From assembly GCF_000244975.1 (NCBI RefSeq), contig NZ_CM001440.1:1415538-1479537 (forward strand): DNA of 64,000 bases, written 5' to 3'. Of this stretch, positions 17,306 through 53,526 are shown piece by piece. A program made the position numbers and the translations under genes. This DNA comes from Saccharomonospora cyanea NA-134 (GTDB lineage: Bacteria; Actinomycetota; Actinomycetes; Mycobacteriales; Pseudonocardiaceae). Each line of letters starts with the position of its first letter. Position 1 is the first letter of the stretch. The notes below the pieces were generated by a model that was given only the letters and a program-made list of their open reading frames with translations, did no database searches and was not told where the DNA came from.

Positions 17306-17715
17306 TACGGTGCACTCCCTCCCTCGTACGGCACGGCACGCTTCCGGGCCCGACGTGGGTCTCGATCGGGGTATGTGGGCCGAAATCGACCCGTCCGCAA
17401 CCGTACCCAGACGAGGTCGGTGGCAGAACGCACGTGCGCTCGGGGGGCGATGTGTGGTCGACTTAGGGCTGCACCGGTGGAGGTGGTCGCGTGGAAGACC
17501 GACAACCCAGCCCTCACGGCGCCGGAGCCCGGCAGCCCGCCGGGTCGGCGCCCGAGACGTTCGCGCCCTGCGTGCCGACGACCGTCGTCGGACCGTCGCC
17601 CACGGGCCCGCCCGCGAGGGTGGGCCGGGTCACCCGGTCCCACCATCGCTGGTCGCGGGACCCCGGAGGGTCTACAGGGCCGACTCCGACGTCGCCCGGT
17701 CTGGGAAAACGGCGT

Positions 17716-18216
17716 GTGCTGCTGCTCAACGCCACGTTCGAGCCGCTCACCGCGCTACCGCTGCGGCGGGCCATCGTGCTGCTCGTCTGCGGCAAGGCGG
17801 AGGTCGTCCACGAGGATCCGGCCGGGATCACGCTGCACTCGGCCACGATGACGGTGGAGCTGCCGTCGGTGATCCGGCTCAGCAGATACGTCCGGGTACC
17901 CTACCGGGCCCAGGTTCCGCTGACGCGGGCGGGGCTCATGCACCGCGACCGGTTCCGTTGCGCTTACTGCGGCGGCAGGGCGGAGACCATCGACCACGTG
18001 GTACCCCGTAGCCGGGGCGGGGCGCACTCGTGGGAGAACTGCGTCGCCTGCTGCGCGAAGTGCAATCACCGGAAGGCCGACAAGCTCCTGTCCGAGCTGG
18101 GATGGCGGTTACGGATCGTGCCGAGGGAGCCGCGCGGGCCGCACTGGCGGCTGTTGGCGCACGCCAAGGAGGCCGATCCGTCGTGGCAGCGCTACCTGGG
18201 CGCTCCCGCAGCCTGA
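17716..18216 (+). CDS. HNH endonuclease-domain protein
   Basis: The product is 166 residues from the GTG at 17716. The N-terminal half ([19 protein letters not shown]) is the conserved preface of actinobacterial HNH proteins. The HNH core follows: RCAYCGG with a CxxC, DHVVPRSRGG, ENCVACCAKCNHRKADK with a second CxxC, so a zinc ribbon frames the His-Asn-His metal finger. It would be a cytoplasmic nuclease or nuclease-like DNA-binding protein; the target is unknown. The frame is open to a GTG at 17491, but that extension is low-complexity and I regard it as non-coding. It matches Rv2469c in the conserved order. Confidence 0.88.
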   Translation: MLLLNATFEPLTALPLRRAIVLLVCGKAEVVHEDPAGITLHSATMTVELPSVIRLSRYVRVPYRAQVPLTRAGLMHRDRFRCAYCGGRAETIDHVVPRSRGGAHSWENCVACCAKCNHRKADKLLSELGWRLRIVPREPRGPHWRLLAHAKEADPSWQRYLGAPAA

Positions 18217-18237: not shown

Positions 18238-18507
18238 TCAGCGGGTGACGCGGGTCCCGCAGGTCACGCGGGTGCCCCGCGTCACCCTGGTGCCCCTCGT
18301 CACACGGGTGCCGGCGGTCACCCGCGTTCCTCGCGTGACGCGAGTGCCTCGGGTGACGCGAGTGCCTGCCGTGACCCGCGTTCCTCGCGTGACGCGCGTT
18401 CCTCTGGTGACCCTGGTTCCGCAGGTGACGCGGGTGCCGGCGGTGACGCGAGTGCCGCGAACAGCGGTGTCGGACAGGACGGGGGTGACGCTCGAAATGG
18501 TGGACAT
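18238..18507 (-). CDS. hexapeptide-repeat protein, twelve GTRVTx units (unknown function)
   Basis: The product is 89 residues: a 17-residue leader (MSTISSVTPVLSDTAVR) followed by twelve uninterrupted GTRVTx hexapeptides. The variable residue runs A C R, R A R, R A R, R C R. There is no signal peptide and the chain is extremely basic. The ATG at 18507 has AGGAGG seven bases upstream, an ideal ribosome site. Codons vary freely (Arg as CGC, CGT, CGG, CGA, AGG and AGA; Gly as GGC, GGA, GGG) while the GTRVT residues do not. The AGG/AGA changes would be Arg-to-Leu on the opposite strand, so the minus strand is the selected one. I recognise no family. It could be a beta-solenoid, a nucleic-acid-binding peptide or a modified-peptide precursor. 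Confidence 0.82.
   Translation of the reverse strand: MSTISSVTPVLSDTAVRGTRVTAGTRVTCGTRVTRGTRVTRGTRVTAGTRVTRGTRVTRGTRVTAGTRVTRGTRVTRGTRVTCGTRVTR
18241..18456 (-). repeat. twelve tandem 18-bp units
   Basis: Twelve in-register 18-bp units encode the GTRVTx array. They are degenerate at third positions, so the array is old or has been under protein-level selection. There are no spacers, which rules out CRISPR. Confidence 0.9.
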
Positions 18508-18790
18508 GGCAGGTCCTCCTGTGACCGTGGTGACCTGATAAGGACTTGAGGACGGTGGCGCAAGGCCCGTACAGGTGAAAAACGTACGAGCCTTTCCTTG
18601 GAGGAACAAGGTGTTGTCGGCGGGTGCCACCGCACGTACGTGGAAGTGCGACCTTTCGCGAATGGGCCTTCCCCTCATCGTGGGATTACCCGCGTGGCAA
18701 GCGGGTGACCAGGGGGCCTGCCCGTGAGTGCGGGCGATGTTTCACCGTGGCAGGTGAGTAGCGGAAGGGCCGGTCGGTTACCCTGCCGCC
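18508..18790. promoter_or_regulatory. divergent intergenic region of the repeat gene and ctaJ
   Basis: This 283-base stretch separates the divergent repeat gene and ctaJ. AGGAGG of the repeat gene lies at its left edge. Small palindromes are visible (TTCGCGAA at 18655-18662; a CGTAC/GTACG pair near 18575-18590), but I see no convincing -35/-10 pair. Confidence 0.4.
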
Positions 18791-19039
18791 GTGAGCATCC
18801 TCGAGACGATCCTGGTCTTCGTGGCGATACCGCTGGCCGTCTACGGCTTCTTCGCGCTGGTGACGCTACGGTCGAAGTTCGCGAGTAGGCCCCGTTACCG
18901 GCCGGGGCAGGCGTGGGACTACCCGCCCGTGTGGTGGACCGCCAACCCGGAGGGTGTGGGACAGCGACACGCCGACGACGCCGAGCACGGTGACGCCGTT
19001 CCGGCAAAGGTTCGAGGAGGTGCCAGTGGCAACTGGTGA
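18791..19039 (+). CDS. ctaJ: small membrane protein, probable aa3 oxidase subunit CtaJ
   Basis: The product is 82 residues. One transmembrane helix (residues about 4-26, ILETILVFVAIPLAVYGFFALV) is followed by a basic segment and the motif RYRPGQAWDYPPVWWTANPEG. That tail is what I recall of CtaJ, a small accessory subunit seen in the mycobacterial III2-IV2 respiratory supercomplex, encoded next to the DUF5130 gene as here. The identification is from memory of the motif and context. The GTG start gives the expected MSILET N-terminus. The end overlaps the start of the DUF5130 gene by 14 bases, so translation is probably coupled. Confidence 0.75.
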   Translation: MSILETILVFVAIPLAVYGFFALVTLRSKFASRPRYRPGQAWDYPPVWWTANPEGVGQRHADDAEHGDAVPAKVRGGASGNW

Positions 19040-19523
19040 ACTGACCCGCGAGAGCTCGTCCACCGGGCTTGAGGGGACCGAACTCCAGCCCGGTGCCGCC
19101 GTGACGGCGAGTGGGCGAGTCTCGGTCGCGCAGATGTACGAGCCCGTTACTCCATCCGGCCCCTTCGGCACTGCGCAACTCGCTCGACTCGACGAGGCGC
19201 TGACGCTGGCCAGCCGGGAGACCGGCCTCAACTTCAGCATCTACGTCGGCGAGCTCGGTGACGAGCCGCGGAAGGGTGCGGAAACGCTGCACGACACGCT
19301 CCGTGAGCGTGGTGACGAGTCCGTCCTGGTGGCCGTGTCGCCGGGTGAGCGCGTCGTCGAGGTGATCACCGGTGCTCACGCCAAGCAGCGGCTGTCCGAC
19401 CGCGGCGCCAAGCTCGCGGTGATGAGCATGGTCGCCTCGTTCAAGGAGGGCGACCTCATCGGTGGCCTCGTCAGCGGCCTGCGCATGATGGCCGACCAGG
19501 CAGGCTCCGCACCGCGTTCCTGA
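19026..19523 (+). CDS. DUF5130 (TPM-like) protein
   Basis: The product is 165 residues from GTG at 19026, which has GAGGAGG five bases upstream. Residues about 45-150 form an alpha/beta domain resembling TPM-type domains: LDEALTLASRETGLNFSIYVGEL, then GDESVLVAVSPGERVVEVITG, then a helix rich in Met and Gly (LIGGLVSGLRMM). The N-terminus is Ser/Thr-rich with no clear membrane helix. It corresponds to Rv2468c. Overlap with ctaJ suggests a link to the respiratory chain, but this is inference. Confidence 0.85.
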   Translation: MATGELTRESSSTGLEGTELQPGAAVTASGRVSVAQMYEPVTPSGPFGTAQLARLDEALTLASRETGLNFSIYVGELGDEPRKGAETLHDTLRERGDESVLVAVSPGERVVEVITGAHAKQRLSDRGAKLAVMSMVASFKEGDLIGGLVSGLRMMADQAGSAPRS

Positions 19524-25294: not shown

Positions 25295-26098
25295 CTAGAA
25301 GCCGAAGTCTCCGCCGAAGTCGCCTCCGCCGAAGTCTCCGCCTCCGAAATCACCGCCACCGAAGTCCTCGCCGCCTCCGGCGTCGCCCGCATCGCCACCG
25401 GCGTCCCCGGCGTCACCGCCGGCGTCACCGCCCTCCAGCGCGTCCTCCTGGCCGGCGTCGTAGCCTGCTTCCCAGGCTGCGGCGCTCGGGATTCCGGCCA
25501 TCCCGGAGAACATGGTGGAGAACAGCAACATCGAGCCGAAACCCCACGCTCCCGCGACGAGGGCGGGCTTCCACCAGGGCTCGCTGTACCAGCCCTGCGG
25601 CACGGGGCGGCCGGCGACCCGGCCACCCGGGTAGTAGTGCGGGGTGCTCGCCGTCGGCTGAGGAGACGCCTCGTAGTGCTGGCCCTCCACGTCGACCGAA
25701 CGGTGCTCGGTGACCTTGCCCGCACGCTCCCGCTCGGGGTCGTCAGGAAGCGCGGGACCGGGGTCGAGGCCCATCGCCGTGCGTGCGGCACGGACGTAGT
25801 AGAGGCCCTCCAGCGCGGTCTTCTTGGCTAGGTGTGCCTGCTCGACAGTCTCGGCGCGCTCCATCTCGGATCCCGCGGCGTTGTACCGCTCGCTGGCGTC
25901 GGCCATCGCCTGCTGGGAGGCCGTGTCGGTCCCGGTGAGGTTCAGGACCTGGCCACCGAGGCGTTCGACCCAGCGTCGAGCTTCGGCCTTCGCGTCTTCG
26001 AGCTGACGTCGCTTGGCCTGGGCCTGGGAGCGGACGAGGTACGTCGCGCCTGCGACGATGATCAGCAGGAGCACGATCACCGTGATCGTGGTTCCCAT
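25295..26098 (-). CDS. DUF1542-like membrane protein with Gly/Asp/Phe-rich tail
   Basis: The product is 267 residues. Residues 3-22 form a transmembrane anchor, then a long charged helix (QAQAKRRQLEDAKAEARRW) and helical segment to about 115. A second hydrophobic stretch spans roughly 183-205 (PALVAGAWGFGSMLLFSTMF). The tail is low complexity: GGDAG repeats followed by GGGDFGG repeats ending DFGF. I recall such proteins annotated as DUF1542 in Pseudonocardiaceae; function unknown. ATG at 26098 has GGGGAG upstream. It lies 72 bases downstream of the NlpC/P60 gene on the same strand. Confidence 0.82.
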   Translation of the reverse strand: MGTTITVIVLLLIIVAGATYLVRSQAQAKRRQLEDAKAEARRWVERLGGQVLNLTGTDTASQQAMADASERYNAAGSEMERAETVEQAHLAKKTALEGLYYVRAARTAMGLDPGPALPDDPERERAGKVTEHRSVDVEGQHYEASPQPTASTPHYYPGGRVAGRPVPQGWYSEPWWKPALVAGAWGFGSMLLFSTMFSGMAGIPSAAAWEAGYDAGQEDALEGGDAGGDAGDAGGDAGDAGGGEDFGGGDFGGGDFGGGDFGGDFGF

Positions 26099-50859: not shown

Positions 50860-52383
<1,524 letters not shown>

Positions 52384-52389
<6 letters not shown>

Positions 52390-52525
52390 GCGAGAATCCA
52401 TGCTGCTCGCGGAGGCCGATCGGGTGCGGGTGTCCCGCAGGATGCTGGGAGGCCGTGTGAGCGAGAATTTCGTGCTGCTCGCGGAGGCCGATCGGGTGCG
52501 GGTGTCCCGCATTACAGAGGAGGCC
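52384..52525 (+). repeat. tandem 71-bp repeat between transporter genes
   Basis: Two 71-bp units (52384-52454 and 52455-52525) share most bases; a third partial copy continues into the permease start, so GTGTGAGCGAG occurs at 52384, 52455 and 52526. The units differ by a few substitutions and two compensating one-base indels. Confidence 0.9.
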
Positions 52526-52531
52526 GTGTGA
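52400..52531 (+). other. micro-ORF created by the 71-bp duplication
   Basis: From the ATG at 52400 a 43-residue frame contains LLAEADRVRVSR twice and ends EEAV, the same last residues as the ATPase. A nested GTG at 52457 gives a 24-residue version, and another frame from GTG at 52386 gives a 24-residue peptide with five cysteines (stop at 52460). Each stop overlaps the next GTG as GTGA, so ribosomes can pass from the ATPase to the permease through them. Whether they are functional peptides or only coupling sequence is unknown. Confidence 0.4.
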
Positions 52532-53526
52532 GCGAGGTTGTCACGGCCCCGGCGGTACCGAAGCGTCCTCAGTGGACTCGGCACCTCACGAACCCCGTCG
52601 TCGCCGTCTACGCGGCACTGGTTCTGGTGCTGGTCATCGGCAGTGTGCTCGTCGGACTGCAGGGTGGTGTGCTGCTCGACCAGGGCGGCATCATGAACAT
52701 CCTGACGCGCAGCACCGCACTCGGTCTCGTCGCCATCGGCCAGACGATGGTCATTCTGACCGGCAAGCTGGACCTGTCGGTGGCGTATCTCGTCGGCCTG
52801 TGTTCGCTGATCGCGGCGGAGACGATGGCGGGCAACGACTCGATGATCCTTCCCGCCGTGTTGTTGACGCTCGCGTGCGCCGCCGGTGTGGGACTGGTCA
52901 ACGGGCTGGTCGTCACCAAGCTGAAGGTCAACGCGTTCATCGCCACGCTGGGCACGGGACTCGTCATCCGGGGCTACCTGGAGAACAACTACGAGGGCCC
53001 GGCCGGTGACGTGCCGACGGCGTTCCAGCACCTCGGGTACGACCGGATCGGTCCGGTTCCGGTGTCGGCGCTGCTGATGCTGGGGTTGGCGGTGCTCGCC
53101 TGGTGGTTCCTCGCGAGGACCCGCCCCGGATACCACGTGTACGCCGTGGGCGGTGACGAGGAGGTCGCGCGGTTCTCGGGTATCCGTAACGACCGCACCG
53201 TGATCACCGTGCACGTGCTGTGTGCGGTGGCGGCCGGGCTCGCGGGACTGTTCCTGGCGAGCAGGCTCGGCTCCGGCTCGCCGTGGGTCGGCACCGACGG
53301 CGGTTACGACCTGGAGTCCATCGCGGCCGTGGTGCTCGGCGGCACCATCCTGGCAGGCGGTCGGGGCGGTGTCGCGGGAACGATCGGCGGCGTCTTCATC
53401 CTCGCCACGCTCGACACGATCTTCGACGACCTCGGTATGAACTCGTTCTTCAAGGACGTGGTCCGGGGAGTCGTGCTGATCGTGGCCGTCGCGCTGTACG
53501 CCCGTCGCAGGAAGGCCGCCCGATGA
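52528..53526 (+). CDS. sugar ABC transporter permease (RbsC type), first of two
   Basis: The product is 332 residues with about 9-10 transmembrane helices. GLVAIGQTMVILTGKLDLSVAYLVGLCSLIAAE and VNGLVVTKLKVNAFIATLGTGLVIRGY are BPD_transp_2 landmarks; AVGGDEEVARFSGIRNDRT is the ATPase-contacting loop and AAVVLGGTILAGGRGGVAGTIGGV follows. GTG at 52528 overlaps the preceding micro-ORF stop, and its ATGA end overlaps the second permease. Confidence 0.92.
   Translation: MSEVVTAPAVPKRPQWTRHLTNPVVAVYAALVLVLVIGSVLVGLQGGVLLDQGGIMNILTRSTALGLVAIGQTMVILTGKLDLSVAYLVGLCSLIAAETMAGNDSMILPAVLLTLACAAGVGLVNGLVVTKLKVNAFIATLGTGLVIRGYLENNYEGPAGDVPTAFQHLGYDRIGPVPVSALLMLGLAVLAWWFLARTRPGYHVYAVGGDEEVARFSGIRNDRTVITVHVLCAVAAGLAGLFLASRLGSGSPWVGTDGGYDLESIAAVVLGGTILAGGRGGVAGTIGGVFILATLDTIFDDLGMNSFFKDVVRGVVLIVAVALYARRRKAAR

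Follow-up and report, generated by a model that had tools for sequence, protein, structure and literature searches.

Organization of the locus

The stretch of DNA analysed here (the window, 64,000 nucleotides of the Saccharomonospora cyanea NA-134 genome) carries on its minus strand, at 18238..18507, a gene for a protein of 89 amino acids composed of a 17-residue leader, MSTISSVTPVLSDTAVR, and twelve copies of the unit GTRVTx. The gene starts with an ATG at 18507 and stops with a TGA at 18240-18238. The residue x is A, C or R (in unit order A C R R A R R A R R C R), and the protein ends GTRVTR, with an Arg at the C-terminus and without an Ala-Ala tail. This array, reported with its leader in a preliminary description of the DNA, is confirmed in the open reading frame, as is the Shine-Dalgarno sequence AGGAGG that the description placed seven bases ahead of the ATG; it lies at 18515..18520 (minus strand) and is conserved in aligned relatives. 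A longer open reading frame in the same frame opens at 18678; despite it, 18507 was taken as the start, since the conserved promoter, the leader and the Shine-Dalgarno sequence point there.

The gene is flanked by a convergent HNH endonuclease gene (17491..18216, plus strand, by Pfam, start position approximate), by the divergent ctaJ, encoding a subunit of an aa3-type cytochrome oxidase (18791..19039, plus strand, NF050118, E 3.3e-31), and by a DUF5130/TPM gene (18954..19523, plus strand, by Pfam) that served as synteny anchor. Among 111 loci tested the array gene is convergent with HNH in 109, the gap between them ranging from -25 to 324 nt. This neighbourhood bears on the reading of the product as a RiPP-type precursor whose several cores would be modified by an enzyme from another locus. 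A leader followed by repeated cores that are rich in Thr and Arg and contain some Cys would suit such a precursor, but there is no modifying enzyme among the six neighbours scanned (globin, MscS, HNH, CtaJ, DUF5130 and PepN), and the gene stays next to HNH in nearly all loci, so that we consider this reading very improbable.

Other features of the window include a tRNA-Arg(TCT), the reader of AGA, at its edge (23-97), short tandem repeats (12, 15 and 21 bp) that overlap one another at 25301-25432, and a 72-bp imperfect tandem duplication of a gene junction at 52372-52536 in which the stop, Shine-Dalgarno and start region is repeated; the genes that meet there presumably encode the ATPase of a sugar ABC transporter and its permease.

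Upstream element and predicted promoter

Upstream of the gene, at 18559..18580 (minus strand), lies a near-invariant element of 22 nt, TTTCACCTGTACGGGCCTTGCG, which coincides with the predicted start of transcription or immediately follows it. It is preceded by a -10-like hexamer, TACGTT (TANNNT), at 18581..18586 and, 17 nt before this, by a -35-like hexamer, TTGTTC, at 18604..18609, both on the minus strand. The predicted promoter comes from the comparison of loci, a strict E. coli-type consensus scan for promoters and terminators having called none here. In the aligned upstream DNA the near-invariant stretch reads TTTCACCTGTACGG.CCTTGCG.

Homologues were collected as loci with the element (a fixed regular expression derived from these sequences) and an open reading frame that has two or more motifs and begins 40-110 nt downstream; 155 such loci gave 119 genes after removal of identical coding sequences, one of them without a stop. 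In this set, whose distance and promoter figures are conditional on its selection by element and reading-frame position, a TTGTCC-like hexamer and TANNNT stand ahead of the element in 115 of 118 loci, compared with 2.45 in shuffled upstream DNA, TANNNT is found in 117 of 118, the spacing between the two hexamers is 17 nt in 110 loci and 18 nt in 5, and the first base of the element lies 71-75 nt from the ATG in 113 of 119 genes and 53 nt from it in the other 6. Given its position after the two hexamers, the element would span the predicted start of transcription together with the earliest bases of the RNA. Across a deliberately diverse set of 48 leaders, identity is 91% within the element versus 38% between the element and the ATG. 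A fold in the 5' leader RNA was rejected both by eye and by comparison with shuffled sequences: the consensus energy of the same 48 leaders was -0.41 versus -0.11 (sd 0.44) after shuffling, none beyond the shuffles, and the locus gave no Rfam match.

The window genome, a single contig of 5,408,301 bases, holds one site for the element at up to 3 mismatches. With at most 2 mismatches it occurs in 224 of 386 family genomes, while a reversed-pattern control matches in two; in a sample of 318 genomes of the order, a variant pattern detected it in 48 of the 59 that belong to the family and in one of the other 259 (2 mismatches). An array of the genus g28 (L237) lacks the element, the best match having 7 mismatches, and in the same genus as the window three arrays (genomes G001, G008 and G010; loci L227, L233 and L235) follow an element with 3-4 mismatches in ungapped comparison. 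To judge by these sequences, the element is dispensable, as arrays persist where it has been lost or altered.

Selection on the encoded protein

Within the pentapeptides of the twelve window units, base differences are found at the third codon position or the first base of Arg codons and nowhere else. The motif Arg is encoded by CGC, CGG, CGT or AGG, Gly by GGC, GGA or GGG and Thr by ACC, ACG or ACT; all six Arg codons are present because Arg at x positions adds AGA and CGA. This tally agrees with the six Arg, three Gly and three Thr codons for constant residues that the preliminary description listed. As a DNA repeat the array is scored by TRF at just 72-79%.

The sequence ACNCGNGT is near-palindromic and both strands therefore read a hexapeptide repeat, which favours a repeat acting at the DNA or RNA level (binding sites or structure), its reading frame being a by-product. 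The two frames differ, however, in how well their residues are kept. Over all pairs of the twelve window units the sense frame shows 194 synonymous codon differences and no amino-acid change, whereas the aligned antisense frame (PVLTV), in which AGG reads Leu, as had been predicted, has 20 amino-acid differences beside 188 synonymous ones; the selected frame is therefore that of the minus strand. In 54 GTRVT arrays read in register, deviations affect 7 of 697 hexamers; when both strands are compared, the sense frame has 77 amino-acid versus 12534 synonymous codon differences and the antisense frame 987 versus 12014, in agreement with the earlier claim of protein-level selection on the minus-strand frame (the zero sense-frame entropy among GTRVT units is so by construction, since GTRVT units alone were selected for it). 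Varying third positions, Ser and Arg that switch codon families, sense residues kept better than antisense ones, the empty Rfam search and a 5' untranslated region that folds no better than its shuffles all count against the DNA- or RNA-level repeat, to which we assign the lowest probability of the readings weighed here.

The same regime applies to other versions of the array, with 45 amino-acid versus 4725 synonymous codon differences in SVRIT arrays; GVRIS arrays are less strict, as their 390 amino-acid versus 3946 synonymous differences indicate. The 116 genes that have four or more units yielded 1970 copies identical to the word of their gene versus 55 one-residue variants, a count that units changed at two or more residues escape. 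Of all pentapeptides that fit the family pattern, the word of the respective gene accounts for 1405 of 1406 in GTRVT arrays, 244 of 244 in SVRIT, 34 of 34 in GVRIH, 53 of 53 in GTRIT and 164 of 171 in GVRIS arrays. The units are not fresh duplicates, since third codon positions differ in 35-51% of within-gene comparisons (class means). Ser is encoded by TCN 220 times and AGY 27 times in SVRIT arrays, and by TCN 4 times and AGY 162 times in GVRIS arrays. Constant residues, scrambled synonymous sites and Ser in both TCN and AGY form indicate that every copy is held and not merely recently copied.

Words, linkers and array shape

The unit is a pentapeptide followed by a variable linker, and not the fixed hexapeptide of the preliminary description. 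GTRVT is the repeat in the window, as described; family-wide it is just one lineage's version, and the array changes as a whole between lineages. Relatives carry GVRVT, GTRIT, GIRVT, GVRIS, GVRIH, GVRIE, GVRIN, SVRIT and G[IV]RVN, near-uniform within each gene, which gives the family pattern [GS][TVI]R[VI][T/S/H/N/E] with an invariant Arg. A pentapeptide array stands behind the element in 30 of 30 loci of one set and in 38 of 38 element-bearing loci of another. The words at element loci, by lineage, are GTRVT, GVRVT, GTRIT, GVRIS, GVRIH, SVRIT and G[IV]RVN (GTRVT and GVRVT both occur in one genus, g33), and GVRIN, GVRIE and GIRVT were added by reading the interval upstream of DUF5130. Genes contain 2 to 60 units (median 13) after a leader that measures 17 to 53 residues (median 25), the leaders being weakly alike across homologues. 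In the genus g38 (L226, L231) the array gene is very short, with 31 aa and four GVRIN/GVRID units. Lys makes up 0.3% of the residues of the array proteins. Bulk positive charge as the conserved property was ruled out by the class means of net charge per residue, which run from +0.16 (GTRVT) to -0.02 (SVRIT).

The main rival of the reading favoured below is a beta-solenoid, in which each pentapeptide would form a strand (with residues 2 and 4 facing inwards and Arg3 and residue 5 outwards), the linkers would form turns, and uniform ladders of Arg and of Thr, Ser, His, Asn or Glu would bind a regular surface, e.g., a polymer or nucleic acid. Such ladders would account for the uniform position 5, and profile searches lend the fold some support. 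A GVRIH array, the only one of four variant arrays to do so, exceeds the cut-off of PF00132 (Hexapep, E 1.8e-7), and an SVRIT array exceeds those of DUF2345 (E 1.3e-16), DUF3540 and ChapFlgA; the window protein has five weak PDB matches (E 0.04-0.6), which are enzymes of the left-handed beta-helix kind. In 62 stretches in which all linkers are single residues, identity of x is 0.50 at lag 3 and 0.47 at lag 6, versus 0.27 at lag 1 and 0.20 at lag 2; this period of three units fits an 18-residue coil, and in the same stretches synonymous identity is flat at 0.42-0.47, with no matching period.

Against a single regular solenoid stand the irregular linkers. In GTRVT arrays they measure one residue at most joints and otherwise 2-5 or more (1 to 13 and more overall), in SVRIT arrays mostly 3-5 and in GVRIS arrays 3-4. 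In linker-rich GTRVT arrays the joined units form runs of one (121), two (120), three (48) or more (31), groups of one, two and three thus all being common, and regular 18-residue coils were not found to extend across the family. Repetitive alternating sequence inflates profile scores, and the window protein has no Pfam match at cut-off and none to PF00132 at E <= 1. On balance the solenoid appears unlikely, though it is the alternative to be taken most seriously.

Further searches with the window protein gave no match in NCBIfam at model cut-offs, none in PADLOC and none in PHROGs, where one SVRIT array matched weakly (E 0.004). PF00805, the model of pentapeptide-repeat proteins of the Qnr/MfpA type, was not among the matches of the window protein (E <= 1) or of the four variant arrays (E <= 0.01). 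In the open-licence literature, searched with the motif words, repeats and actinobacteria, no account of such arrays was found, an absence that is not proof. Within the models and open-access literature searched, no described family was found, in line with what the preliminary description had supposed.

Distribution and descent

A search of the Pseudonocardiaceae for such arrays, as the preliminary description had proposed, was productive. At E <= 1e-3 the 89-residue query matched in all 12 genomes of the genus and, family-wide, in 234 of 390 genomes and 36 of 46 genera, the weak matches having been checked in part. Among the matches listed, 39 of 40 named loci (L065-L103) carry the array gene, in Prauserella, Amycolatopsis, Saccharomonospora, Haloechinothrix and Qaidamihabitans as well as Actinophytocola, Kibdelosporangium, Actinokineospora, Labedaea and one MAG. 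A Trebonia locus and two viral_contigs loci were rejected as members, as their repeats are of different make-up and lack the upstream element.

Outside the family, the order search (E <= 1e-8) matched in seven genomes and the phylum search (E <= 1e-9) in one; the seven of these eight that were inspected (all but G667) are other low-complexity repeats, none with the element, the best matches to which have 7-9 mismatches. The closest by make-up is G473 (L183), of another family of the order, where a small open reading frame at 1464-1619 holds seven GTRVGR units of near-identical DNA without the element. No array match was found in the plasmids or phages searched, and the gene was rejected as a candidate for anti-phage defence or a mobile element on this ground, on the empty PADLOC result and on the unlike viral_contigs loci.

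With DUF5130 as anchor, located in 47 of 48 genomes, the interval upstream of it was read. The array was present at this locus in 21 and absent in 16 of 37 family genomes, which had mostly been picked because the element search had missed them; the genera without it are g5, g15, g20, g31, g41, g44 and g45 (1-5 genomes each). It was present in none of 10 genomes of other families, where the interval is not always comparable because HNH was not found in the stretch in several.

On a tree of the HNH proteins the 12 word classes require 16 changes, with a minimum of 11 and a mean of 55.9 after shuffling (0 of 200 as low), in a quick tree of 91 of 141 proteins in which two of three GTRVT rows were thinned out, some long branches are unsure and near-copies favour such a test. 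The word thus descends vertically for the most part, and its switches are wholesale. Taken together, the data show a vertically inherited, single-locus protein-coding gene of the Pseudonocardiaceae behind its own conserved promoter-like region.

C-terminal tails

Among the 118 complete homologues, 61 end in AA (37 of them in LAA) and 57 do not end in AA, and a tmRNA-like end, [DE][FYLV]x[LQ]AA, is present in 33; examples are CQSDYALAA and ARQNDFSLAA. The background, 257 mechanically called open reading frames of at least 200 aa from the same neighbourhoods, which may include some array genes, has 13 AA and 2 LAA ends. The tmRNA tag predicted by ARAGORN is AKTNSQRDFALAA in the window genome; two relatives have ADSSQREYALAA and ATSNDKRAFALAA. 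The tags of these three family genomes end in QRDFALAA, QREYALAA and KRAFALAA. In Streptomyces, sigma-AntA requires its C-terminal Ala-Ala, a ClpXP degron, to be degraded (PMC7142297). A Clp-like tail in half of the homologue set suggests a short-lived product.

A putative partner that reads the word

The mechanism that we favour, at about an even chance of being correct, is a multivalent array of a short linear motif that would be read by a co-evolving putative partner. The product would be flexible, and each copy would dock to one partner protein present in the array-bearing genera, probably by forming a short extended strand whose invariant Arg would enter a pocket. As a sponge or hub, the array might collect partner molecules in large numbers, its many copies supplying avidity or dose. 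When the specificity of the partner drifts, the whole array would occasionally be re-set to a new word, in which all copies would then be held. In about half of the homologues the C-terminal Ala-Ala, often as (D/E)(F/Y)xLAA, would make the product a Clp protease substrate of limited lifetime.

A docking motif is expected to look as the arrays do, in that the pentapeptide is kept while linker spacing and bulk charge vary. Since the copies are uniform, spacing, charge and codons drift and whole arrays are re-set between lineages, a partner reading the word appears to be the best explanation, and the lineage-specific words suggest that this putative partner is cellular. Mimicry of another protein of the genome was considered and rejected. 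Outside the array, GTRVT-coding DNA is not enriched in the window genome, with 27 sites versus 26 for the reversed pattern, so that no mimicked endogenous site is evident. Inspection covered 25 of the 27 sites; many are out of frame, some encode Ser, since the pattern allows Ser for Arg, and those in frame presumably include SecD-, GreA-, Maf-, Xer- and MoeB/ThiF-like proteins.

Several observations weigh against the motif array. No partner was found, the window protein and 57 of 118 homologues lack the Ala-Ala end, GVRIS arrays are less strict, and the array is missing from the locus in the 16 of 37 family genomes mentioned above. A floppy array would not need the three-unit period of x, and the beta-solenoid-type profile matches also count against it.

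Lineage-specific words held in many copies would also be expected of a multi-copy precursor of peptide signals, from which proteolysis would free pentapeptides that act on a lineage-specific receptor, by analogy with Phr on Rap, and the degron would then feed a protease. The Phr words QRGMI and ERGMT have different residues at positions 1 and 5, and each is recognised with exact specificity (PMC3601957); some array classes differ from one another in a like manner. Against this reading, no export signal was recognised in the leader by eye, the residues flanking the pentapeptide form no fixed processing site and the six scanned neighbours include neither a peptide receptor nor an exporter. Phr precursors, moreover, are known to carry one signal each, not an array. 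We regard a signal precursor as improbable.

The motif array read by a partner can be extended, tentatively and with the chances somewhat against it, to an undescribed intracellular recognition code made up of one word per lineage in up to dozens of copies, a co-evolving receptor and, in many species, a Clp-protease timer that works through mimicry of the tmRNA tag. The stepwise re-writing of whole arrays (GTRVT, SVRIT, GVRIS, GVRIH, GVRIE, GIRVN and others) would record changes in receptor specificity. A near letter-perfect motif with varied codons, exchanged across whole arrays between lineages, is a strong sign of an unseen binding partner. The GTRVT, SVRIT, GVRIS and GVRIH arrays could serve as multivalent baits, with built-in specificity controls, for a peptide-reading module in actinomycetes, and the family offers a natural bacterial case of concerted evolution of a protein word across a whole array.

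Comparison with known systems

Left-handed beta-helix hexapeptide-repeat proteins (PF00132) share with the arrays the alternation of aliphatic and small residues, the hexapeptide period of GTRVTx and, where linkers are of one residue, the 18-residue super-period. The arrays differ from them in their irregular linkers and in the invariant Arg of the consensus, and the window protein does not match the model.

Clp substrates such as sigma-AntA and tmRNA-tagged proteins carry the LAA or AA tail that is found on about half of the array homologues, where it comes near to the tmRNA tags of the family. In the array family, in contrast, the tail is not universal and is absent from the window protein, and degradation is a prediction from sequence.

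The Phr pentapeptides (PhrF QRGMI, PhrC ERGMT) likewise are five-residue words that contain Arg and are read specifically by a partner (PMC3601957). The arrays, unlike them, hold 2 to 60 copies in one protein, and no export signal or linked receptor was recognised. Ehrlichia TRP120, a repetitive protein with short linear motifs, resembles the arrays as a bacterial protein in which such a motif is repeated; TRP120 is a host-directed effector, whereas the array belongs to a vertically inherited gene of an actinomycete family whose word switches between lineages.
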